Positions 37,843 to 47,159 of a stretch of DNA of 64,000 nucleotides are shown piece after piece. This DNA comes from Bythopirellula goksoeyrii (lineage in GTDB: Bacteria > Planctomycetota > Planctomycetia > Pirellulales > Lacipirellulaceae). The notes beneath the pieces are model-generated. The model searched no databases and was not told the DNA's origin. It saw only the letters and a list, made by a program, of their open reading frames with translations. The stretch covers positions 904,338 to 968,337 of the forward strand of contig NZ_CP042913.1 in NCBI RefSeq assembly GCF_008065115.1, written 5' to 3'. Each line of letters opens with the position of its first letter. Within the stretch, counting starts at the first letter, position 1. A program made the translations under genes and the position numbers.

Positions 37843-37946
37843 TATGGATCGTAATGTGATGCCCTCGTCAGGTTAGTTGCCGGTAGCAGGCACTTGATAG
37901 GATAATTTCATAGCCACCCACCGATCAGGCCTCATGGACCCTCCCG

Positions 37947-39194
37947 ATGAGCGAAATCATAGCCGAGCAAGTGCAAGACATTGTCGACACCATCTATCGC
38001 ACCGAGTCTCGGCGGGTCTTTGCCACGCTTGTGCGGCTGCTAGGCGATTTTGATCTGGCTGAGGAAGCACTCTCTGATGCCTTTGCCGCGGCAGTGGAGA
38101 AGTGGCCAGCGGAAGGGGTGCCGGCCAATCCTCGAGCGTGGCTTGTCTCGGCCGGACGGTTCAGAGCGATAGACACCATGCGCCGGCGGGCGCGCTTCGA
38201 TGCCTCGCTTGAGTCCATTGCCGATCGAATCAATACGGATCATGAGGAGCTCATCAACGACGAGGAAGTAGCCGATGATCGCCTCCGACTGATCTTCACC
38301 TGCTGCCATCCTGCGTTGTCACCAGAGGCACAGGTTGCCCTCACCTTGCGGGAAGTTTGTGGACTGACCACCGAGGCGATCGCTAGCGCCTTTCTGACCG
38401 CCCCCTCGACCCTGGCTCAAAGGATCGTGCGGGCCAAGGCAAAGATTCGCGATGCGAAGATTCCGTACCAGATACCCTCGCGTGCAGAATTGTCCGAGCG
38501 GCTTGAACCGGTTCTGCAAGTTGTCTACTTAGTGTTCAATGAGGGTTACGCGGCTTCGTCGGGCGATTCACTCACGCGGCCTGATCTATCGGGCGAAGCG
38601 ATTCGCTTGGGACATCTACTGGTGGAACTGCTGCCCGACCCGGAAGTCATGGGTCTATTGGCGCTCATGCTGCTGCATGAATCCCGCCGCGCGGCGCGGA
38701 CTTCGCCAACCGGCGAGATCATTCTCTTGGAGGATCAAGACCGAACTCAATGGAATGATGCTATGATCGCGGAAGGCAAATCGCTGGTCGAGGAGGCGAT
38801 GTCATCCAAGGAGGTTGGCCCCTATACCGTACAGGCAGCAATTGCGTCGGTGCATGCTAACGCTGCCGGACCTGAGGTGACCGATTGGGGACAAATCGTG
38901 ACCCTGTACGACATCTTGTCACAAGCCAACCCGTCACCCGTGGTCGAACTCAACCGAGCAGTCGCTGTGGCAATGCGCGATGGACCGGCGGCGGGCATCG
39001 GGCTTATCGACGCCATTCTGGCCCGTGGCGAACTGGCCGACTATCATCTGGTCCACGCCGCTCGTGCAGATCTTTGTCGACGAATGGGAAAGTACGACGA
39101 AGCCCGGGATTCGTATCGTCGTGCACTCGAATTGGCAAAGCAAGAACCGGAACGGCAGTTTCTGGAAAAGCGACTGCAGGAACTTTCAAAGTAA
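37947..39194 (+). CDS. ECF sigma factor, ECF42-type with C-terminal TPR extension
   Basis: A 415-residue sigma factor, twice the usual ECF length. Sigma2 spans about 10-85 (EEALSDAFAAAVEKWPAEG, NPRAWLVSAGRFRAIDTMRR). Sigma4 lies at about 110-170 (LREVCGLTTEAIASAFLT). The extension opens with 'LVFNEGYAASSGD', then ALMLLHESRRAAR, 'LLEDQDRTQWNDAMIAEG' (DUF6596) and TPR-like helices (about 330-415). This is the ECF42 layout, known to occur beside YCII/DGPF genes, as it does here. No anti-sigma gene is present, so the extension is the likely control element. The gene does not have the TGTCGAT-N16-CGACTA site itself. Confidence 0.93.
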   Translation: MSEIIAEQVQDIVDTIYRTESRRVFATLVRLLGDFDLAEEALSDAFAAAVEKWPAEGVPANPRAWLVSAGRFRAIDTMRRRARFDASLESIADRINTDHEELINDEEVADDRLRLIFTCCHPALSPEAQVALTLREVCGLTTEAIASAFLTAPSTLAQRIVRAKAKIRDAKIPYQIPSRAELSERLEPVLQVVYLVFNEGYAASSGDSLTRPDLSGEAIRLGHLLVELLPDPEVMGLLALMLLHESRRAARTSPTGEIILLEDQDRTQWNDAMIAEGKSLVEEAMSSKEVGPYTVQAAIASVHANAAGPEVTDWGQIVTLYDILSQANPSPVVELNRAVAVAMRDGPAAGIGLIDAILARGELADYHLVHAARADLCRRMGKYDEARDSYRRALELAKQEPERQFLEKRLQELSK

Positions 39195-39273: not shown

Positions 39274-39305
39274 TGTCGATTTTGTCTCCTCCCCTTCGAC
39301 TAATG
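39274..39305 (+). promoter_or_regulatory. Candidate ECF42 promoter P1
   Basis: TGTCGA at 39274-39279 and CGAC at 39297-39300 are separated by 17 bases and lie 60 bp before the ATG of the first YCII gene. The wider agreement with P2 and P3 is TGTCGAT-N16-CGACTA. Confidence 0.8.
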
Positions 39306-39359
39306 GGTAGCAAGCAATAAAATTAGTCCCTTTCTTCGAGCAATTTTCTGGAGGACGCT

Positions 39360-39767
39360 ATGAAATTCATTTGTCTTGGCTACCTGGACCAAGCGAAATA
39401 TGAAGCACTTTCTGAGGCCGAGGGGAAGGCGATGATGGAAGAGTGCTTTGCCTATGACGACGAACTCCGCCGTGGAGGGCATTTTCTCGGCGGCGAGGCA
39501 CTGCAAAATGCCAGCAAAGCCGTGACCCTGTGGGTTCGCAATGGTAAAGTCGCCGCCACGGACGGTCCCTACGCCGAGACCAAAGAACAACTTGGCGGCA
39601 TTCTAATTCTCGAAGCCCGAAACCTGGATCATGCGATCGAGCTAATGTCCAAGCATCCCGGCGTCCGCGTCGGGCCATTCGAGATTCGTCCGGCGGATGA
39701 ACAAGTCAATGCGCTTGTCGCCGCTCGAGATGCGGCCTTCGCCGAAAAAAATAGTGCTATAAAATAA
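39360..39767 (+). CDS. YCII/DGPF-family protein
   Basis: A 135-residue cytoplasmic protein of the YCII fold. It starts with [17 protein letters not shown] and carries the signature '[20 protein letters not shown]' (DGPYAE in place of DGPFAE), followed by [20 protein letters not shown] precedes the ATG by five bases. YCII proteins are small ferredoxin-like folds whose reaction is largely unknown. It is the first gene behind the ECF42 sigma factor and has its own candidate promoter, so it is the expected primary target. Confidence 0.92.
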
Positions 39768-39778
39768 CTCCGAACAAG

Positions 39779-39810
39779 TGTCGATCCCAGCGTATGCAGT
39801 TCGACTATTT
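39779..39810 (+). promoter_or_regulatory. Candidate ECF42 promoter P2
   Basis: TGTCGA at 39779-39784 and CGAC at 39802-39805, 17 bases apart, lie 57 bp before the ATG at 39862 and 12 bp behind the previous stop. The site would fall inside the longer reading of the next gene, which supports the later start. Confidence 0.8.
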
Positions 39811-39861
39811 CGAAACGAGCGTTTTTCGCCTACAGAAACAGCCGATTTCCAAGGAACAATG

Positions 39862-40215
39862 ATGTATTACCTTTGCCTGGCCTATGGAGATGAAGCGGGC
39901 TGGAACTCTCTGAGCGACGGCGAAAAACAGGAAGTTCTCGCTCAAGATGCCGTCATCCGAGATCGGGGCAATGTTATGTCGGCGGTACAGACGCAGGTCA
40001 CGTCAGTACGGAACTGGAATAAGAAACTTGATTTAAGAGAGGAACCCTTCCTACAACAAAATCTGCCACTTGCTGGGTTTGCAGTGATTGAAGCCAAGAA
40101 TCGGTCCGAGGTTGTCAAGCTTGTATCCAATACTCCTTGTGCTCGAGCACAGGGAGTCATTGAGATTCGCGAGTTCTGGAACATTGGCAACGTTGTCACA
40201 TCACCACGAGATTAA
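39862..40215 (+). CDS. YCII-like protein lacking the DGPF motif
   Basis: A 117-residue protein. The start (MYYLCLAYGDEAGWNSLSDG) and end ('LAGFAVIEAKNRSEVVKLVS' then IEIREFW) follow the YCII pattern, but the middle reads LDLREEPFLQQNLPL where [13 protein letters not shown] is expected. The signature is therefore lost. ATG 39862 is five bases after AAGGAA. It is probably a diverged paralogue of its neighbours, perhaps without the original activity. First gene of the second transcription unit. Confidence 0.8.
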   Translation: MYYLCLAYGDEAGWNSLSDGEKQEVLAQDAVIRDRGNVMSAVQTQVTSVRNWNKKLDLREEPFLQQNLPLAGFAVIEAKNRSEVVKLVSNTPCARAQGVIEIREFWNIGNVVTSPRD

Positions 40216-40228
40216 CGGAGAATACTCC

Positions 40229-40654
40229 ATGACTAGAATGATCTTTATCAACTTGCCCGTCACTGACCTCACAAAGTCGATGGCATTTTATGAATCCCTC
40301 GGGTTTGTCAACAATCCCCATTTCACCGACGAGACGGCAGCATGCATGGTTTGGAGCGAAGCGATCAACGTCATGCTACTCACGCACGAGAAATGGCGAA
40401 CCTTCACAAGCCGGGAAATTCCACCAATGACGTCCAGTGAAGTGATGCTCGCTCTAACCTGTGATAGTCGAGAAATTGTCGACAAGTTGAATGAGCTAGC
40501 TGCAAAGAACGGTGGCACCGCCGACATCAATCCGAAGCAGGATCTAGGTTTCATGTACAATCGCAACCTGGCTGATAGGGATGGCCACGTTTGGGAAATG
40601 TTTTGGATGGACCCAGCCGCGATACCGGCAGCCGGTTCGGCTACTGAAAAATAG
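40229..40654 (+). CDS. VOC-family (glyoxalase/bleomycin-resistance fold) protein
   Basis: A 141-residue protein. 'MIFINLPVTDLTKSMAFYES' followed by LGF is the typical start of a VOC beta-alpha-beta unit, and 'DRDGHVWEMFWMDP' is the typical end with a likely metal-binding Glu. The family covers glyoxalases, dioxygenases and resistance proteins, so the substrate cannot be named. ATG 40229 lies eight bases after GGAG and 13 bp behind the YCII-like gene. Confidence 0.9.
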   Translation: MTRMIFINLPVTDLTKSMAFYESLGFVNNPHFTDETAACMVWSEAINVMLLTHEKWRTFTSREIPPMTSSEVMLALTCDSREIVDKLNELAAKNGGTADINPKQDLGFMYNRNLADRDGHVWEMFWMDPAAIPAAGSATEK

Positions 40655-40705
40655 CCGCCCTGGAATGTAAACCGCGTACAACTAAGAAACAGTGGAGATC
40701 CAATC

Positions 40706-41164
40706 ATGTCTGGTCCATCCAACAGCGTCAAATTACACCGCGTTTTGCGAGCATCGGCTGAGCGTATCTACAATGCCTTTCTCGATCCCGACGCGAAGGC
40801 GCGGTGGTTGCCACCCTATGGATTCATCGGCAAAGTTCATGAGATGAACGCCGAAGTTGGTGGCGGCTACCAGATGTCGTTCACCAACTTCTCTACAGGC
40901 AGTAGTCATTCATTTAGTGGCAAATTTGTCGAACTTACTCCTCACGAGCGGATTCGATACACGGACAAATTCGACGATCCGAATCTACCGGGTGAAATGG
41001 AGGTGACTGTTACCCTACGCCCAGTCATTTGTGGAACGGAGCTTCACATCCTGCAAGAGAATATTCCTGAGGCGATTCCCGCTGAGATGTGCTACCTCGG
41101 CTGGCAGGAGTCTCTCTTGCAGCTTGCCCATCTCGTCGAACCAGAAATCCCCGACGGAGAGTAA
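40706..41164 (+). CDS. SRPBCC-family protein (AHSA1-like)
   Basis: A 152-residue START-like protein: 'HRVLRASAERIYNAFLDPDA' then RWLPPYGFIG, followed by GGGYQMSFTNF, 'GKFVELTPHERIRYTDKFDD' and a C-terminal helix with 'GWQESLLQLAHLVEPEIPDG'. This is the activator-of-Hsp90-ATPase-1-like branch of the SRPBCC hydrophobic-pocket fold. It is a frequent neighbour of YCII genes. The ligand is unknown. GGAG is eight bases before the ATG. Confidence 0.9.
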   Translation: MSGPSNSVKLHRVLRASAERIYNAFLDPDAKARWLPPYGFIGKVHEMNAEVGGGYQMSFTNFSTGSSHSFSGKFVELTPHERIRYTDKFDDPNLPGEMEVTVTLRPVICGTELHILQENIPEAIPAEMCYLGWQESLLQLAHLVEPEIPDGE

Positions 41165-41325
41165 CATTTAAGAATTACTGGCGATGCAGGCAGAAATGTA
41201 TCGGCTCTCTCGCAGTGACAAGATGTCGTCTCAAAGTTGCCTGCCGGCCCTAGGATTCATCAGTTCCGTGAGAATACAATTCCAAACGGGATGAATAGCA
41301 GACCTTCACCATAAGGAGCCACGCG

Positions 41326-41802
41326 ATGTCTTCGCGAATCGATTATCAACATGTTGCCCCAGACGCGTTCCGTGCCATGTTTGGGCTGGAAAGATATATT
41401 CGAGGTTGCGGCCTGGAAACGTCTCTCATCGAATTGGTCAAGATGCGCGCCTCGCAAATCAATGGTTGCGCACACTGCCTGGACATGCACTCGAAGGATG
41501 CTCGTTCCCAAGGTGAAACGGAACAGCGACTCTATCTCTTGAGTGCCTGGCGTGAAGCACCGTTCTACAGTGAGCGTGAACGAGCAGCCCTGGCCTGGAC
41601 AGAAGCATTAACGCTGATTGCCGAGGACGAGGTCTCCGATGAGTTGTACGACGAGGTGCGACAGCATTTTTCGGAGGAAGAACTTGTCAAACTAAGCCTG
41701 GCAGTCGTCACGATCAATGGCTGGAATCGTTTGGCGATCGGGTTTCGAGCAGATGTGGGCAACTATGAACCGGGTTCGATGGAGAAACCGGCAACTAAGT
41801 AA
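41326..41802 (+). CDS. AhpD-like carboxymuconolactone decarboxylase family protein
   Basis: A 158-residue protein with the peroxidase-type redox motif 'NGCAHCLDMHSKDARSQGET' (C-x-x-C and His), preceded by LIELVKMRASQI. It ends with a helix containing 'VVTINGWNRLAIGF'. AhpD-type members use the Cys pair to reduce peroxides or transfer electrons to a peroxiredoxin. The role here is inferred to be redox or detoxification. GGAG precedes the ATG. Last gene of the second unit, followed by promoter P3. Confidence 0.92.
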   Translation: MSSRIDYQHVAPDAFRAMFGLERYIRGCGLETSLIELVKMRASQINGCAHCLDMHSKDARSQGETEQRLYLLSAWREAPFYSERERAALAWTEALTLIAEDEVSDELYDEVRQHFSEEELVKLSLAVVTINGWNRLAIGFRADVGNYEPGSMEKPATK

Positions 41803-41834
41803 GTTGCGGCGACCTAAAAAATAATTTCCGTGCT

Positions 41835-41866
41835 TGTCGATTTGGCCATTCTCCAAACGACTACTT
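41835..41866 (+). promoter_or_regulatory. Candidate ECF42 promoter P3
   Basis: TGTCGA at 41835-41840 and CGAC at 41858-41861, 17 bases apart, lie 54 bp before the ATG at 41915. It opens the third and longest unit, which runs to the DoxX-like gene. Confidence 0.8.
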
Positions 41867-41914: not shown

Positions 41915-42337
41915 ATGCGATTCATGGTCCTAGTAAAGGCTGACAAAGATTCTGAAGCTGGCGTGATGCCTAGTGAAGAACTCCTTACTGAGATGGGTAA
42001 GTTCAACGAGAAATTGGTTAATGCTGGTGTCATGTTAGCCGGCGAAGGGCTCCACCCCACTTCGAAGGGAGTGCGGGTAAAGTTCTCCGGGAAACAACCG
42101 TCTGTGATCGATGGTCCGTTCGCCGAAACCAAGGAACTTGTCGCGGGCTTTTGGATCTGGAAGTGCGATTCACTCGCCAAAGCGATCGACTGGATTAAGC
42201 AGAGCCCGTTTCAAGATACGGAGATCGAAATCCGCCAAATCTTTGAAGCAGAGGATTTTGGCGCCGAGTTGACGCCTGAACTTCGCGAGCAAGAAGAACG
42301 ACTGCGAGCCAAAGCCGAGGAGCTTAGCAAAACCTGA
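41915..42337 (+). CDS. YCII/DGPF-family protein
   Basis: A 140-residue YCII protein: MRFMVLVKADKDSEAG, later 'VIDGPFAETKELVAGFWIWK' with an intact DGPFAE signature, then 'EIRQIFEAEDFG'. The C-terminus is a charged helix. GGAGG lies nine bases before ATG 41915; a reading from 41834 would overlap promoter P3 and is rejected. Confidence 0.92.
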   Translation: MRFMVLVKADKDSEAGVMPSEELLTEMGKFNEKLVNAGVMLAGEGLHPTSKGVRVKFSGKQPSVIDGPFAETKELVAGFWIWKCDSLAKAIDWIKQSPFQDTEIEIRQIFEAEDFGAELTPELREQEERLRAKAEELSKT

Positions 42338-42386
42338 TCTCACTTTTAGAAAACCCTAGCCGGAGGCACACTTGCCGCCGGGACAC

Positions 42387-42408
42387 CCGGACCAAGGTGT
42401 TGGTCCGG
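42387..42408. repeat. Short hairpin behind a YCII gene
   Basis: CCGGACCAA and its complement with a GGTG loop, 50 bp behind the stop at 42337. It lies in a wider inverted context (AGCCGG near 42359, CCGGCT ending at 42410). No T-run, so a processing or attenuation hairpin is as likely as a terminator. Confidence 0.55.
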
Positions 42409-42462
42409 CTAAGGTGAGAACATTCATATCGCCAAGCAACATTCAAATCTAAGGAGCCCCTT

Positions 42463-42558
42463 ATGACCAATCCATTCGAGGTTCACGCCAAAGGCTGGTT
42501 TAGCATCATCAAGGATCTCAGGACGGCCTTACTCGGACTATGGCAGGGCACAAATTAG
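42463..42558 (+). CDS. Candidate small protein, 31 residues
   Basis: A short frame with a strong ribosome site (AAGGAG, seven bases before ATG 42463). The product starts MTNPFEVHAKGWFSIIKDLR and ends TALLGLWQGTN, amphipathic with several aromatic residues. It is in line with the operon and ends 36 bp before the next gene. It might be a true small protein of the ECF42 regulon or the leftover N-terminus of a lost gene. Confidence 0.5.
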   Translation: MTNPFEVHAKGWFSIIKDLRTALLGLWQGTN

Positions 42559-42594
42559 CCCGCGACCCAAGGCATATTCAGAAAGAGACCACCG

Positions 42595-42900
42595 ATGTGC
42601 CGGACATGTAAACAATCGCGCACGCCAGTTTCTGGAACGAAGCCCACCAAGATCGTTGGTTGGTTTGGCAGCATCCTCGGTTGGCTACTGCCAAGTGTGG
42701 GACTCGCAATAATGCCCAAATGTCCGGCGTGCGTGGTAGGCTATGTGGCATTGGCTACCGGAGTTGGCATTTCGGCATCTACCGCGACCTTTCTGCGCAC
42801 GGGTTTGGTCGTTTTGTGTGTGGGGTTGCTGCTCTTAGGTGTGGTAAAGGCGACTCGTTATTTGCTTCCACAAATACGCCACAGAGAACAAATAGTTTGA
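42595..42900 (+). CDS. Small membrane protein with CPxC motif
   Basis: A 101-residue protein with a Cys pair at the N-terminus (MCRTCKQ). Two membrane helices (about 22-55 and 65-90) and a central 'IMPKCPACVVGYVALATGVG' with C-P-x-C placed at the helix start. The arrangement recalls small MerC-like or thiol-containing membrane proteins, but no family is assigned. It lies inside the ECF42 cluster, next to a thioredoxin-like DUF899 gene. Confidence 0.75.
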   Translation: MCRTCKQSRTPVSGTKPTKIVGWFGSILGWLLPSVGLAIMPKCPACVVGYVALATGVGISASTATFLRTGLVVLCVGLLLLGVVKATRYLLPQIRHREQIV

Positions 42901-42942
42901 TCCTTGATTTCATAGAAACTTCATTTCCGAGGAGTACAAAGG

Positions 42943-43668
42943 ATGGCTACAATCACAATCGCTTGTCCAGAAATCGTATCGCAAACCGAATGGCAACAGG
43001 CGCGGGACAAATTGCTTGTGAAAGAAAAAGCGGCGATGAAGGCGAGCGACGCCTTGGCTGCTGAACGGCGTCGTCTGCCGATGGTTCGCATCGAGAAAGA
43101 CTATGTCTTCGAAGGGCCCCAGGGCAAGGTAAAGCTTGTCGATTTGTTTGAAGGACGAAGTCAACTGGCACTTTACCACTTTATGTTTGCCGAAGGAGTC
43201 AGCGGGTGGCCAGAGGCGGGATGCCCAGGATGTTCCCTGGTCATCGATAACATCGGCTATCCTGAACATTTTAACGTCCGTGATTTGTCTTTTGCGATCG
43301 TATCCCGCGGTCCGCTGGCAAATCTCGAAGCCTACAAGAAACGTATGGGCTGGAATTATCCCTGGTACTCGTCTGAGGGAACAACGTTCAATGAAGACTT
43401 CGGTGTGACGACTCCGCAAGGCGAGACCTTCAGGCTGAGTTTCTTTTTGAAGAATGGCGATGACATTTTTCAAACTTACTACACAACTAACCGTGGTGCG
43501 GAAGTACTGCTGAGCAACTTCGCCCTGCTCGATATGGCTCCCTACGGTCGGCAAGAAGACTGGGAAGATTCGCCATCCGGCTGGCCTCAGTCGAAACCCT
43601 ACATCTGGTGGCGTCGCCACGATGAACACGAAACTCAAAAGGAGCAATCATGCAATACATGCTGTTAA
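42943..43668 (+). CDS. DUF899 thioredoxin-like protein
   Basis: A 241-residue protein of the DUF899 family: 'ACPEIVSQTEWQQARDKLLV', RRRLPMVRIEKDYVFEGP-type segment (LPMVRIEKDYVFEGPQG). Then 'YHFMFAEGVSGWPEAGCPGC' with a Cys pair in place of a thioredoxin active site, and PWYSSEGTTFNEDFGV. The end, TCC preceded by CN, overlaps the next gene by 19 bases. Family members are presumed thiol-redox proteins. Position in the cluster supports a detoxification role. Confidence 0.92.
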   Translation: MATITIACPEIVSQTEWQQARDKLLVKEKAAMKASDALAAERRRLPMVRIEKDYVFEGPQGKVKLVDLFEGRSQLALYHFMFAEGVSGWPEAGCPGCSLVIDNIGYPEHFNVRDLSFAIVSRGPLANLEAYKKRMGWNYPWYSSEGTTFNEDFGVTTPQGETFRLSFFLKNGDDIFQTYYTTNRGAEVLLSNFALLDMAPYGRQEDWEDSPSGWPQSKPYIWWRRHDEHETQKEQSCNTCC

Positions 43669-44042
43669 TCTACTCCGACGAAAACGACTGGACTCAAGAA
43701 GAACGCGAGCACTGCTATAAGGAGTCTACCGAACTCACACAGGAACTAAACAAACGAGGACAATTCGTCTCGGCTTCGCCCTTGGAATCCGTATCAACGG
43801 CGACGAGTGTGCGCGTGCGCGATGGCAAACGGACGGTAACCGATGGTCCCTTTGCCGAGACTCGCGAGCAACTTGGCGGGTACTTCATTGTTGAGGCCAA
43901 GGATCTCAACGAGGCAATTGCCATCGCCAGTCGTATCCCTTCGGCTCGCAAGGGAACTGTCGAAGTACGACCCGTCGTGGAATTGGCTGGCTTGCCAACC
44001 CCCAATAGTGCTGTGACATCTCAAACTTCACCAATCTACTGA
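43650..44042 (+). CDS. YCII/DGPF-family protein
   Basis: A 130-residue YCII protein (MQYMLLIYSDENDWTQ, 'VRDGKRTVTDGPFAETREQL', GGYFIVEAKDLNEAIAIA). AAAAGGAG precedes the ATG within the end of the DUF899 gene, so the two are translationally coupled. Very similar to the following gene, suggesting tandem duplication. Confidence 0.93.
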   Translation: MQYMLLIYSDENDWTQEEREHCYKESTELTQELNKRGQFVSASPLESVSTATSVRVRDGKRTVTDGPFAETREQLGGYFIVEAKDLNEAIAIASRIPSARKGTVEVRPVVELAGLPTPNSAVTSQTSPIY

Positions 44043-44056
44043 ATGAATCGAAGAAC

Positions 44057-44428
44057 ATGAAATTCATATTGCTATGTTACGATGACGAGCAAGCCTGGCA
44101 ACAAGCGGGTAAGGCGGCACATGAAGCGGCAATTGCTGAAGCCGTGCAGCTTACTCACGAACTCCAGAAGAGAGGGCAATACATTCGCTCGGCGCCGCTT
44201 CACCCTACGGCGACTGCAACCAGTGTACGGGTTCGCGAGGGGAAGAAGTTGGTGACGGATGGTCCGTTTGCTGAGACCCGTGAGGTGCTCGGTGGATTTC
44301 ATTTGATCGATGTAAATAGCCTCGAAGAGGCAATTGATATTGCTGGCCGACATCCTGGGGCCCGCATAGGGTGCGTTGAGATCAGGCCGATTGTTGAGCT
44401 GACAAGTCTGCCCGCTATCAACACTTAA
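44057..44428 (+). CDS. YCII/DGPF-family protein
   Basis: A 123-residue YCII protein (MKFILLCYDDEQAWQQAG, 'VREGKKLVTDGPFAETREVL', GGFHLIDVNSLEEAIDIA). It follows its paralogue by 14 bp. The two share the same order of motifs (SAPL, TATSVRVR, TDGPFAETRE, EVRP/EIRP-VEL), which shows a local duplication. Confidence 0.93.
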   Translation: MKFILLCYDDEQAWQQAGKAAHEAAIAEAVQLTHELQKRGQYIRSAPLHPTATATSVRVREGKKLVTDGPFAETREVLGGFHLIDVNSLEEAIDIAGRHPGARIGCVEIRPIVELTSLPAINT

Positions 44429-44496
44429 GTTGCGAGAATGATGACGAAGTTGTTTCCAAATCAACTGTTTCCTTTCTTTTTCCTATGGAGGTTCCT

Positions 44497-45132
44497 ATGA
44501 ACACGAAGATTTTGGCTGCTAGTTTTGGTTCGTTGATTTTGGGCAGCGCGCTCGCTGTGGCCGCTACTTCAACGGATGCATCGTCTTCCGATCAGGCACA
44601 AATGCAATTGCCACCAGGCTGGACGATGGAAGACATGCAGGCGGTCATGGAGGCAGGGACGCCCGGCAAGATGCACGAGCGTTTGGCCAAGGACGTCGGC
44701 ACTTGGGACTGTGAGACGACCATGTGGATGGTTCCCGACAGTGAGCCGATGAAAAGCAGCGGCACGGCCACATACACAGCGTTGATGGATGGCCGCTTTG
44801 TAAAGTGCGAGATGGATGGCGAAATGCCCGGCATGGGCCCTTACCATGGCCTGGGAATCGCTGGTTACGACAATGTCTCGAAAGAGTTCGTGTCTAATTG
44901 GCTGGACAATCACGGCACTGGCATCATGAACGGAACGGGAGAACTTTCGTCCGACGGCAAGACGCTCACTTGGGAGTACACAGGCAATTGCCCTGTCACT
45001 AAGCAGCCGATCGTGATGCGTGAGGTAGAAACAGTGACCGGTCCCAACACCAAGACGATGGAAATGTTCGGCGAAGACCCCAAGAGTGGCAAAGAATTCA
45101 AGATGATGCACATTGAATTCACCAAGCAGTAA
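44497..45132 (+). CDS. Exported DUF1579 protein
   Basis: A 211-residue protein with a signal peptide (about 1-24). The DUF1579 beta-barrel region shows 'LAKDVGTWDCETTMWMVPDS', 'CEMDGEMPGMGPYHGLGIAG' (MPGMGPYHGLGIAGYD) and 'TMEMFGEDPKSGKEFKMMHI'. ATG 44497 lies five bases behind GGAGG; ATG 44485 is too close to nothing recognisable. Family members are presumed ligand-binding. It is followed by a strong terminator. Confidence 0.9.
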   Translation: MNTKILAASFGSLILGSALAVAATSTDASSSDQAQMQLPPGWTMEDMQAVMEAGTPGKMHERLAKDVGTWDCETTMWMVPDSEPMKSSGTATYTALMDGRFVKCEMDGEMPGMGPYHGLGIAGYDNVSKEFVSNWLDNHGTGIMNGTGELSSDGKTLTWEYTGNCPVTKQPIVMREVETVTGPNTKTMEMFGEDPKSGKEFKMMHIEFTKQ

Positions 45133-45147
45133 GTCGGTTAGTTTCTT

Positions 45148-45220
45148 CTCTCGCAGAGCCGCAGAGACGCGGAGCACTTGATACGCTCTGCGACTTGTCG
45201 TCTCTGCGAGAGTTTTTTTC
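45148..45220 (+). terminator. Terminator-like inverted repeat, CGCAGAG family
   Basis: CTCTCGCAGAG (45148-45158) pairs with CTCTGCGAGAG (45202-45212), followed at once by a run of T. It is at the same time a member of the CGCAGAG repeat family seen at 12515 and 32076, so here a dispersed repeat appears to serve as terminator. Read-through would still supply the last three genes. Confidence 0.75.
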
Positions 45221-45245
45221 ATGCTTGCACGTCAAAGGATACGCA

Positions 45246-45662
45246 ATGTACGTTCAACCTTATCTATTCTTCGGTGGTCGCTGTGAGGAAGCACTTGAGT
45301 TTTATTCGAAGTCTCTCGGTGCCAAGGTCGAAATGGTGATGCGATTCAATGAGAGCCCCGAACCAATGCCTCCCGACACAGTACCTCCTGGCTTTGAGGA
45401 TAAAGTGATGCACGCCAGTTTTCGAATCGGCGATTCTCTGGTTATGGCATCCGATGGATGTGACGAAGCTTCGAATTTTAGCGGCTTCTCGTTGTCTCTC
45501 TCTGTGTCAAACGAAGAGGAAGCTGACCGCGTGTTTGCGGCACTATCTGAAGGGGGCAAAGTCGGCATGCCCTTGGGCCGAACATTTTGGTCGCCCCGCT
45601 TTGGCATGCTTACAGACCAATTTGGAATCGGGTGGATGGTCAGCGTAGCTGCAGAAGGTTAA
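45246..45662 (+). CDS. PhnB-like VOC-family protein
   Basis: A 138-residue protein: 'VQPYLFFGGRCEEALEFYSK' then SLGAKVEMVMRF, 'MHASFRIGDSLVMASDGCDE', and 'FGMLTDQFGIGWMVSVAAEG' at the end. This is the PhnB/DUF3828-like branch of the VOC superfamily, common beside YCII genes. Substrate unknown. AAAGGA is six bases before ATG 45246. Confidence 0.92.
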   Translation: MYVQPYLFFGGRCEEALEFYSKSLGAKVEMVMRFNESPEPMPPDTVPPGFEDKVMHASFRIGDSLVMASDGCDEASNFSGFSLSLSVSNEEEADRVFAALSEGGKVGMPLGRTFWSPRFGMLTDQFGIGWMVSVAAEG

Positions 45663-45689
45663 GCTCTCTCAAGTTGTTGGAGAAACGAA

Positions 45690-46322
45690 ATGCCTGAATC
45701 CACAGAAACAAATATTGAAGCCCCTCCAACAGAACGCAAAAGCAGCTCTGTTTTATCGAAAGCCGTCTTGGCACTCGTGCTAATCGTCGCTGGTTTGGCG
45801 ACTGTCATTGCGATGCAACCCTCGGAGTTCCGCGTCGAACGATCGACGACGATGGCCGCTTCGGCGTCGACGATTTTCGCCGAAGTGAATGATTTTCATC
45901 ATTGGGAAGCTTGGTCCCCCTGGTTGGAGCTTGACCCGAATGCAAAAAACTGGTTCGAGGGTCCTCCTTCCGGGAAAGGGGCTGCGTTCCACTGGGACGG
46001 CAATGACGATGTCGGTGCCGGTAGCATGACTATTATCGAAAGTAGCCCCAACGACTTGGTTCGCATCCAGCTAGATTTCACCAGGCCCTTTGAAGACTCC
46101 AGTACAACCGAACTTTCAATCGTGCCGGCGGGCGACGAGTCCAAGGTCACCTGGAGCATGTACGGCAAGAACAATTTTATCAGCAAAGCGTTCTGTCTTG
46201 TCATGGACATGGACAAGATGATCGGCGACAAATACGAAGAAGGTCTCGCCAGTTTGAAGTCGATCGTAGAATCAAAGGCCCAGCCAAAGGACTCTGCTGA
46301 AGCGAATAAAGAGTCCGAGTGA
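45690..46322 (+). CDS. Membrane-anchored SRPBCC (polyketide-cyclase-like) protein
   Basis: A 210-residue protein with one membrane helix (about 24-42) and a START-like domain: FRVERSTTMAASASTIFAEV, 'NDFHHWEAWSPWLELDPNAK', then 'EDSSTTELSIVPAGDESKVT' and a C-terminal amphipathic helix. The family binds hydrophobic ligands. A charged tail ends the protein. GGAGAAACGAA precedes the ATG. Confidence 0.9.
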   Translation: MPESTETNIEAPPTERKSSSVLSKAVLALVLIVAGLATVIAMQPSEFRVERSTTMAASASTIFAEVNDFHHWEAWSPWLELDPNAKNWFEGPPSGKGAAFHWDGNDDVGAGSMTIIESSPNDLVRIQLDFTRPFEDSSTTELSIVPAGDESKVTWSMYGKNNFISKAFCLVMDMDKMIGDKYEEGLASLKSIVESKAQPKDSAEANKESE

Positions 46323-46341
46323 ATCAAGGAAAGGTAAACCC

Positions 46342-46734
46342 ATGGATTCTGAAAACACTACGTCAACCGGTTCCAAGAAGATGCTCTGGGCCGGCTGGAT
46401 TGCCAGCGCCATTCCTGTGGCGATGCTCATCCTGAGCGGCGTCATGAAACTACTGAAACCTGAACCCGTAGTCGAAGGTTTTGAGCACCTCGGCTGGCCC
46501 GCGAGTCTCGCACTGGCGTTAGGTATCGTCGAGCTCGTAAGCACGGCATTGTATGTGGTTCCACGCACGGCAGTGCTCGGAGCCATTCTGCTCACAGGCT
46601 ACTTGGGTGGAGCCATCGCCACGCATGTTCGCATCGGCGAAGGGTTCATCGGCCCGGCGGCCTTCGGCGTGTTGGTCTGGCTGGGCCTGTATCTCCGCGA
46701 TGCGCGAATTCGTGAGATACTCCCGCTGCGCTGA
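46342..46734 (+). CDS. DoxX-like membrane protein
   Basis: A 130-residue protein with four membrane helices and the DoxX pattern: 'AMLILSGVMKLLKPEPVVEG' followed by FEHLGWP, 'GIVELVSTALYVVPRTAVLG' and LLTGYLGGAIATHVRIGEG. DoxX-like proteins act in thiol stress responses in some bacteria; here the role is inferred only from context. Last gene of the ECF42 cluster. Confidence 0.92.
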   Translation: MDSENTTSTGSKKMLWAGWIASAIPVAMLILSGVMKLLKPEPVVEGFEHLGWPASLALALGIVELVSTALYVVPRTAVLGAILLTGYLGGAIATHVRIGEGFIGPAAFGVLVWLGLYLRDARIREILPLR

Positions 46735-47073: not shown

Positions 47074-47159
47074 GGTCAGTTGTCAGTTGTCAGTGGTCAG
47101 TTGTCAGTTGTCAGTTGTCAGTTGTCAGTTGTCAGTTGTCAGTTGTCAGTTGTCAGTTG
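47074..47159. repeat. Heptanucleotide tandem array (GTCAGTT)n
   Basis: About 12 copies of GTCAGTT, with one or two TCAGTG variants in the first third. The array is intergenic. It lies in open-frame sequence on the plus strand only by chance (the period 7 shifts phase each unit). Confidence 0.9.

Follow-up and report, generated by a model that had tools for sequence, protein, structure and literature searches.

Sigma factors of the extracytoplasmic function (ECF) group ECF42 are an already known kind, and we describe here one more case, encoded in a 64,000-nucleotide stretch of the genome of Bythopirellula goksoeyrii (contig NZ_CP042913.1, positions 904,338 to 968,337), hereafter called the window. 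Behind the sigma factor gene lie three copies of the motif TGTCGAT-N16-CGACTA, which are very probably promoters read by the product of that gene. An excerpt of a review describes ECF42 proteins as having a TPR-rich C-terminal extension of about 200 residues, suggests that a YCII-related protein takes part in their control, and ties the Pseudomonas putida member, ECF-10, to oxidative stress and antibiotic sensitivity (PMC8999054). ECF-10, from a different phylum, has a TPR extension like that of the sigma factor in the window, and the Streptomyces venezuelae ECF42 protein of the same excerpt resembles the latter both in this extension and in having a YCII-related neighbor.

For Sinorhizobium meliloti RpoE10, another ECF42 sigma factor, an excerpt of the published study gives three linked sequences of the form TGTCGG-N17-CGTC, two of which precede RpoE10-responsive operons, while the gene at the third is unresponsive (PMC6180224). 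As far as that excerpt goes, the S. meliloti system is like the one in the window in its sigma factor group, in the 17-base spacing, in that self-activation is not apparent, and in that both of its two target operons contain glyoxalase-like genes. It differs in the elements themselves, TGTCGG and CGTC, and in the place of the sigma gene, which lies behind a YCII-related gene.

The window also departs from the layout reported for S. venezuelae, in that its sites follow the sigma gene and stand inside a larger cluster. For S. venezuelae ECF42, Liu, Pinto and Mascher are said to have proposed in 2018 a TGTCGA −35 element and a CGA/TC −10 element; the motif reportedly precedes operons of which the sigma gene is a part, and autoregulation was reportedly proposed.

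Three exact motif copies behind the sigma gene

The features on which the argument turns are the following (positions in the window).

37877..37906, + strand: weak sigma-70-like candidate for the promoter of the sigma gene, TTGCCG-18-GATAAT (promoter scan)
37947..39194, + strand: ECF42-type sigma factor, 415 aa (PF04542, PF08281, PF20239, TPR models)
39274..39302, + strand: predicted ECF42-type promoter P1, TGTCGAT-N16-CGACTA
39779..39807, + strand: predicted ECF42-type promoter P2, TGTCGAT-N16-CGACTA
41835..41863, + strand: predicted ECF42-type promoter P3, TGTCGAT-N16-CGACTA

The sigma factor has the features of its group: sigma-70 regions 2 and 4 (PF04542 and PF08281, Pfam), a C-terminal extension with DUF6596 at residues 185-285 and TPR models at about 369-403 of the 415 residues, and a YCII gene that follows directly, at 39360. 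It is alone in the genome in matching PF20239 (DUF6596) at E <= 0.001. No anti-sigma family was found by Pfam among the scanned neighbors of the sigma gene, which include one small open frame without a Pfam match.

A pattern search of the window returned exact TGTCGAT-N16-CGACTA at P1, P2 and P3, all on the + strand, and none of 100 dinucleotide-preserving shuffles of the window contained it. The first-pass annotation of this DNA had named the same three copies, and what it said of their setting holds: exactly 17 bases separate TGTCGA from CGAC each time, all three sites are intergenic, and an ATG stands 60, 57 and 54 positions beyond the final CGAC base. By direct reading, the second ATG has AAGGAA on its 5′ side and the other two have GGAGG. 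TGTCGA with CGA/TC at 17 bases is also the form that target promoters of the group are said to have. When the shorter form TGTCGA-N17-CGAC was searched with one mismatch, the window gave 11 matches versus 5.3 expected (at least 11 in 3 of 100 shuffles), and only P1, P2 and P3 among them were exact; two of the other eight are P1 and P2 on the minus strand, which match because the motif is partly symmetric.

Before the sigma gene itself, the 400 bp scanned hold no exact or one-mismatch TGTCGA-N17-CGAC, as the annotation had also noted. The sigma-70-like candidate listed above comes from a scan whose yield in the region did not clearly exceed chance (9 sites found, 6.3 expected, sd 2.6). By this sequence test, the sigma gene shows no sign of positive autoregulation, a feature reportedly proposed for the group and not a strict mark of membership.

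Occurrence in the genome, in relatives and in the phylum

The 6.47-Mb genome contains six exact copies of the motif and none of the reversed pattern. Two are inside coding frames; the remaining four, P1 to P3 and one before a DUF1579 gene, stand 52-58 positions before the start codon of a cluster-type gene, that is, a gene of the families found in the cluster of the window. The distal copy ends 53 positions before the ATG of its DUF1579 gene, 1.8 Mb away; the genome was found to have two DUF1579 genes, this one and one in the cluster. The first-pass annotation had held that many random hits with no upstream bias would speak against promoters, and the exact matches, four of six of them upstream of cluster-type genes, do not have that distribution. 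A weak lead in this genome is L015, where a panB gene has a site with one mismatch some 46 bp ahead of its likely start.

We then compared presence of the motif with presence of ECF42 in 39 related genomes, own genome included, of which 17 are ECF42 positive and 22 negative. Any exact site occurs in 13 of the 17 versus 2 of the 22 (Fisher p 2.9e-5), and the reversed pattern gave 2 matches in all 39. An exact site before a cluster-type gene was found in 11/17 versus 0/22 (p 7.4e-6), or 10/16 versus 0/22 when the own genome is excluded (p 1.7e-5). Twelve of the 14 sites in the other ECF42-positive relatives precede a YCII, VOC, DUF1579 or DoxX gene, all 12 Pfam confirmed; three of these (VOC in L177, DoxX in L187, YCII in L189) are on a contig other than that of the sigma gene, in draft genomes. 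At one locus (L180, 1559-2437), a single open frame in which YCII is fused to a glyoxalase-type domain lies behind an ECF42-type site. Among the genus mates (G149-G161), some of them incomplete genomes, 3 of the 13 sampled have ECF42, and the system is thus patchy.

A wider draw from the phylum comprised 149 genomes, 27 ECF42 positive and 122 negative. A site before a cluster-type gene was found in 4/27 versus 0/122 (p 0.0009), and in 3/26 of the positive genomes when the own genome is left aside (p 0.005). The draw contained 14 exact matches, six of them from the genome of the window, versus 5 with the reversed pattern. One genome of the phylum (G125) has five ECF42-type genes (L059, L066, L070, L073 and L085).

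Spacing and form of the site across ECF42-type loci

The comparison was extended to 133 ECF42-type loci, comprising the window, 36 loci of the phylum draw, 80 public loci and 16 loci of the relatives. From the phylum draw, 36 of 39 matches were kept (dropped were the match in the window itself, one of two fragments of a single gene, and a broken fragment), and from the relatives 16 of 18 (the window's own and one already included were dropped). The public loci are the best 80 of at least 591 relatives; they bear 13 phylum-level labels, with 52 loci from Pseudomonadota and several other labels represented by single metagenome bins, and they include Pseudomonas loci other than that of ECF-10.

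In the 80 public loci, TGTCGA and CGAC occur 79 times at 17 bases versus 4-18 times at the other spacers from 12 to 22. When CGAC or CGTC was accepted within 2.5 kb, a site with spacer 17 was found upstream of the sigma gene in 54 of the 133 loci and downstream in 44, versus 0-8 for the other spacers of the same range. Sites 20-130 bp before a cluster-type gene numbered 67 at spacer 17, 9 at spacer 16 and none at 15, 18 or 19, and 57 of the 67, picked within that 20-130 bp range, are 35-73 bp from the approximate start of the gene. The window is alone among the 133 loci in having three such sites before cluster-type genes. Eleven of the 13 phylum-level groups among the public loci have a strict site beside the sigma gene, and none was found beside it in the two Myxococcota loci and the one Nitrospirota locus. 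The agreement across phyla that the first-pass annotation had suspected is supported.

A logo was built from 108 sites; these were picked by TGTCGA-N17-CGWC, so that TGTCGA and CGWC are fixed and only the other positions are informative. TGTCGA is followed by T in 76 of the 108 and by A in 27, with T-rich bases next; CC appears near the end of the spacer, and T directly before CGAC in 64. After CGAC comes T in 74 and A in 13, and the next base is A in 88. A T-rich tract lies 9-12 bases upstream of the site, and none was seen in the 22 bases downstream.

At 17 bases, the 80 public loci show no enrichment of variant elements, neither TGTCGG with CGWC (4 versus 3-20 at other spacers) nor TGTCGA with CGTC (9 versus 2-14). 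Single groups of loci deviate. A 16-base spacer in what is otherwise the same promoter seems to be used in five loci, acidobacterial ones (including L099 and L103, which are among the spacer-16 cases counted above) and two others; in L124, L137 and L165 it was read by eye. In four Rhizobiales loci (L145, L148, L151 and L154) CGTC replaces CGAC, both being present in L148, and the sigma factors of these four have F or Y where most users of CGAC have R (window position 63). Position 63 is possibly a specificity residue; the residues that track CGTC versus CGAC at sigma positions 63 and 73 are suggestive, but the three independent pairs found on supported branches are too few for a conclusion.

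Two arrangements of ECF42 loci

By the strict site, the 133 loci fall into 51 with a site on the upstream side of the sigma gene alone, 41 with one on the downstream side alone, 3 with sites on both sides and 38 with none. The cluster genes follow the site: in the 51 upstream-type loci they lie only upstream in 46, only downstream in 1, on both sides in 2 and on neither in 2, and in the 41 downstream-type loci only downstream in 39, on both sides in 1 and on neither in 1. In the 41 downstream-type loci, the 400 bp in front of the sigma gene never contain a spacer-17 site, even in relaxed form, whereas the 250 bp behind it contain one in 37 of them. On a quick FastTree tree of the sigma factors (L149 and L159 were omitted from alignment and tree as too short), the type of wiring changes 11 times by parsimony, and at least 5 of these changes are forced by well-supported branches. 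Other genomes of the class, order, family or genus of the window supplied 28 loci; 13 of these are without a strict site, and the 15 that have one all belong to the downstream type.

As far as sequence can tell, a sigma gene with no site in front of it is a wiring that recurs among the loci, and the site tracks the YCII-type genes on either side. This lends support to the statement of the first-pass annotation that the sigma factor in the window is probably not self-activated, a view that we hold with good, though not full, confidence. We somewhat favor a more general model: ECF42 loci may have interchanged repeatedly between two wirings, one with the sigma gene behind a promoter-YCII unit and capable of self-amplification, the other with the sigma gene in front and not self-amplifying. 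Since the promoter stays with the YCII-type genes, these genes, and not the sigma gene, would be the fixed output, and in the in-front form the switching would have to come from how active the sigma protein is or from another promoter. The recurrent lack of a site before the sigma gene is at odds with the autoregulation reportedly proposed for the group. The surprise is limited, because an excerpt of a review puts the share of ECF sigma factors with predicted autoregulation at only about 55% (PMC8103513). Nothing on two wirings or on ECF42 in planctomycetes was among the literature matches listed (titles and starts of abstracts), which do not cover the main ECF42 papers, and we make no claim that the two wirings are new.

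What reads the sites

We propose that TGTCGAT would act as the −35 element and CGACTA as the −10 element for a single ECF42-type sigma factor, the one encoded next to P1. In its active state it would drive transcription of the small YCII, VOC, SRPBCC, AhpD-like, DUF899 and DUF1579 proteins of the cluster and of the second, distant DUF1579 gene. The sigma gene, being outside its own regulon, would be supplied from another promoter, and the TPR extension, together with a protein partner, would presumably control the activity of the protein, in the way that the excerpt of PMC8999054 proposes for ECF42. This reading, which the first-pass annotation had also put forward, draws its support from the identity of the sites, their co-occurrence with ECF42, their spacing and their position before the same gene families; transcription from the sites and its dependence on the sigma factor are what it predicts.

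Several observations weigh against it. In the S. meliloti study excerpt, the gene heading the rpoE10 operon does not respond to RpoE10 overexpression despite the motif there (PMC6180224). Four of the 17 ECF42-positive relatives have no exact site (G157, G174, G176 and G179; a looser one is present in G176, L217), and G162 and G184 count as positive solely through an exact site within an HlyD-like gene (L179 and L185). In both the motif stands at about the same place near the 3′ end of that gene, probably a coincidence of coding sequence. Over the phylum the link is weaker, with any exact site in 5/27 versus 4/122 (p 0.010). One-mismatch matches in the genome are at chance (9 further ones versus 8 for the reversed pattern) and were not used. 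Furthermore, 38 of the 133 loci have no strict site; nine of these, with cluster genes only downstream, show a variant site by eye, unscored and uncontrolled. Finally, the 133 loci are related to one another and were chosen by similarity to the sigma factor of the window and its kin.

The partial symmetry of the motif raises the alternative of operators bound by a dimeric transcription factor, with TGTCGA...TCGACA as an inverted repeat. With one mismatch allowed, P1 and P2 do match when read on the minus strand, and exact inverted repeats exist in a few loci (L054 and L058). A palindrome would need A after CGAC, yet only 13 of the 108 logo sites have it, T being present in 74 and then A in 88, and the T-rich tract on the upstream side alone adds to this consistent difference between the halves, by which we rejected the palindromic operator. 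The distance of 35-73 bp from the gene start in 57 of 67 sites likewise argues for promoters, and comparable Sinorhizobium sites near mapped starts are attributed to the ECF42 sigma factor in the excerpt of PMC6180224; an operator is thus highly improbable. That another ECF sigma factor of the genome reads the sites is scarcely credible: our genome search was confined to ECF42-type sigma factors, which leaves such candidates in place, yet the sites co-occur with ECF42 in the relatives and, in all but two of the 13 phylum-level groups of the public loci, adjoin an ECF42-type gene.

A further alternative is compatible with the identity of the promoters and concerns the supply of the sigma factor, which could be self-activated through some other site or by read-through. 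The candidate promoter of the sigma gene is indeed weak, and in 3 of the 133 loci the sigma gene is flanked by strict sites on either side. We consider self-activation unlikely, given that the 41 loci with the same wiring lack even a relaxed spacer-17 site in the 400 bp ahead of the sigma gene, and that 37 of them carry one in the 250 bp behind it.

Cluster genes and transcription units

Behind the sigma gene the following features were recognized.

39360..39767, + strand: YCII-related protein 1 (PF03795)
39862..40215, + strand: YCII-related protein 2, divergent, start possibly 39859 (PF03795, 27.6 bits versus a cut-off of 24)
40229..40654, + strand: glyoxalase/VOC-family protein (PF22677, PF00903)
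40706..41164, + strand: AHSA1/SRPBCC-family protein (PF08327)
41326..41802, + strand: carboxymuconolactone decarboxylase/AhpD-like protein (PF02627, TIGR00778)
41915..42337, + strand: YCII-related protein 3 (PF03795)
42595..42900, + strand: small open frame without Pfam match
42943..43668, + strand: DUF899 protein (PF05988)
43650..44042, + strand: YCII-related protein 4 (PF03795)
44057..44428, + strand: YCII-related protein 5 (PF03795)
44485..45132, + strand: DUF1579 protein (PF07617)
45148..45219, + strand: terminator-like hairpin, 11-bp outer stem with arms 45148-45158 and 45202-45212, then T7
45246..46734, + strand: VOC, SRPBCC and DoxX genes beyond the hairpin (PF06983, PF10604, PF13564), membership in the P3 unit unsure

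The genome was found to have five YCII genes, all of them in this cluster. The first-pass annotation had divided it into three units, 39360-39767, 39862-41802 and 41915-46734, a division that is not settled, and the third unit is doubtful, with the hairpin at 45148-45219 inside it. The 103-base stretch that contains the hairpin folds with a z score of −3.65, and none of 200 shuffles was equally stable; the terminator scan did not see it because its loop exceeds the limit of the scan. The hairpin may end or weaken the P3 unit after 45132, and the VOC, SRPBCC and DoxX genes past it may belong to a separate unit. As for the other boundaries, that scan, a weak one that covered loops of 3-8 only and did no better than shuffles (9 sites versus 9.4 expected), gave nothing terminator-like in the gaps ahead of P2 and P3; P2 and P3 may for this reason be internal promoters. 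Just past the cluster, at 47075-47158, a pattern count gave 12 head-to-tail 7-base units, GTCAGTT or GTCAGTG.

Implications

The small-protein families of the predicted regulon are often linked to stress or detoxification. The ECF42 group is widespread, and a strict, portable motif makes it possible to list its targets from sequence, the distal DUF1579 gene being an example. If many loci are indeed without self-activation, models that assume autoregulation of ECF42 need revision. The two wirings, if true, would offer a natural comparison for how the TPR extension and a YCII partner control the activity of these sigma factors.

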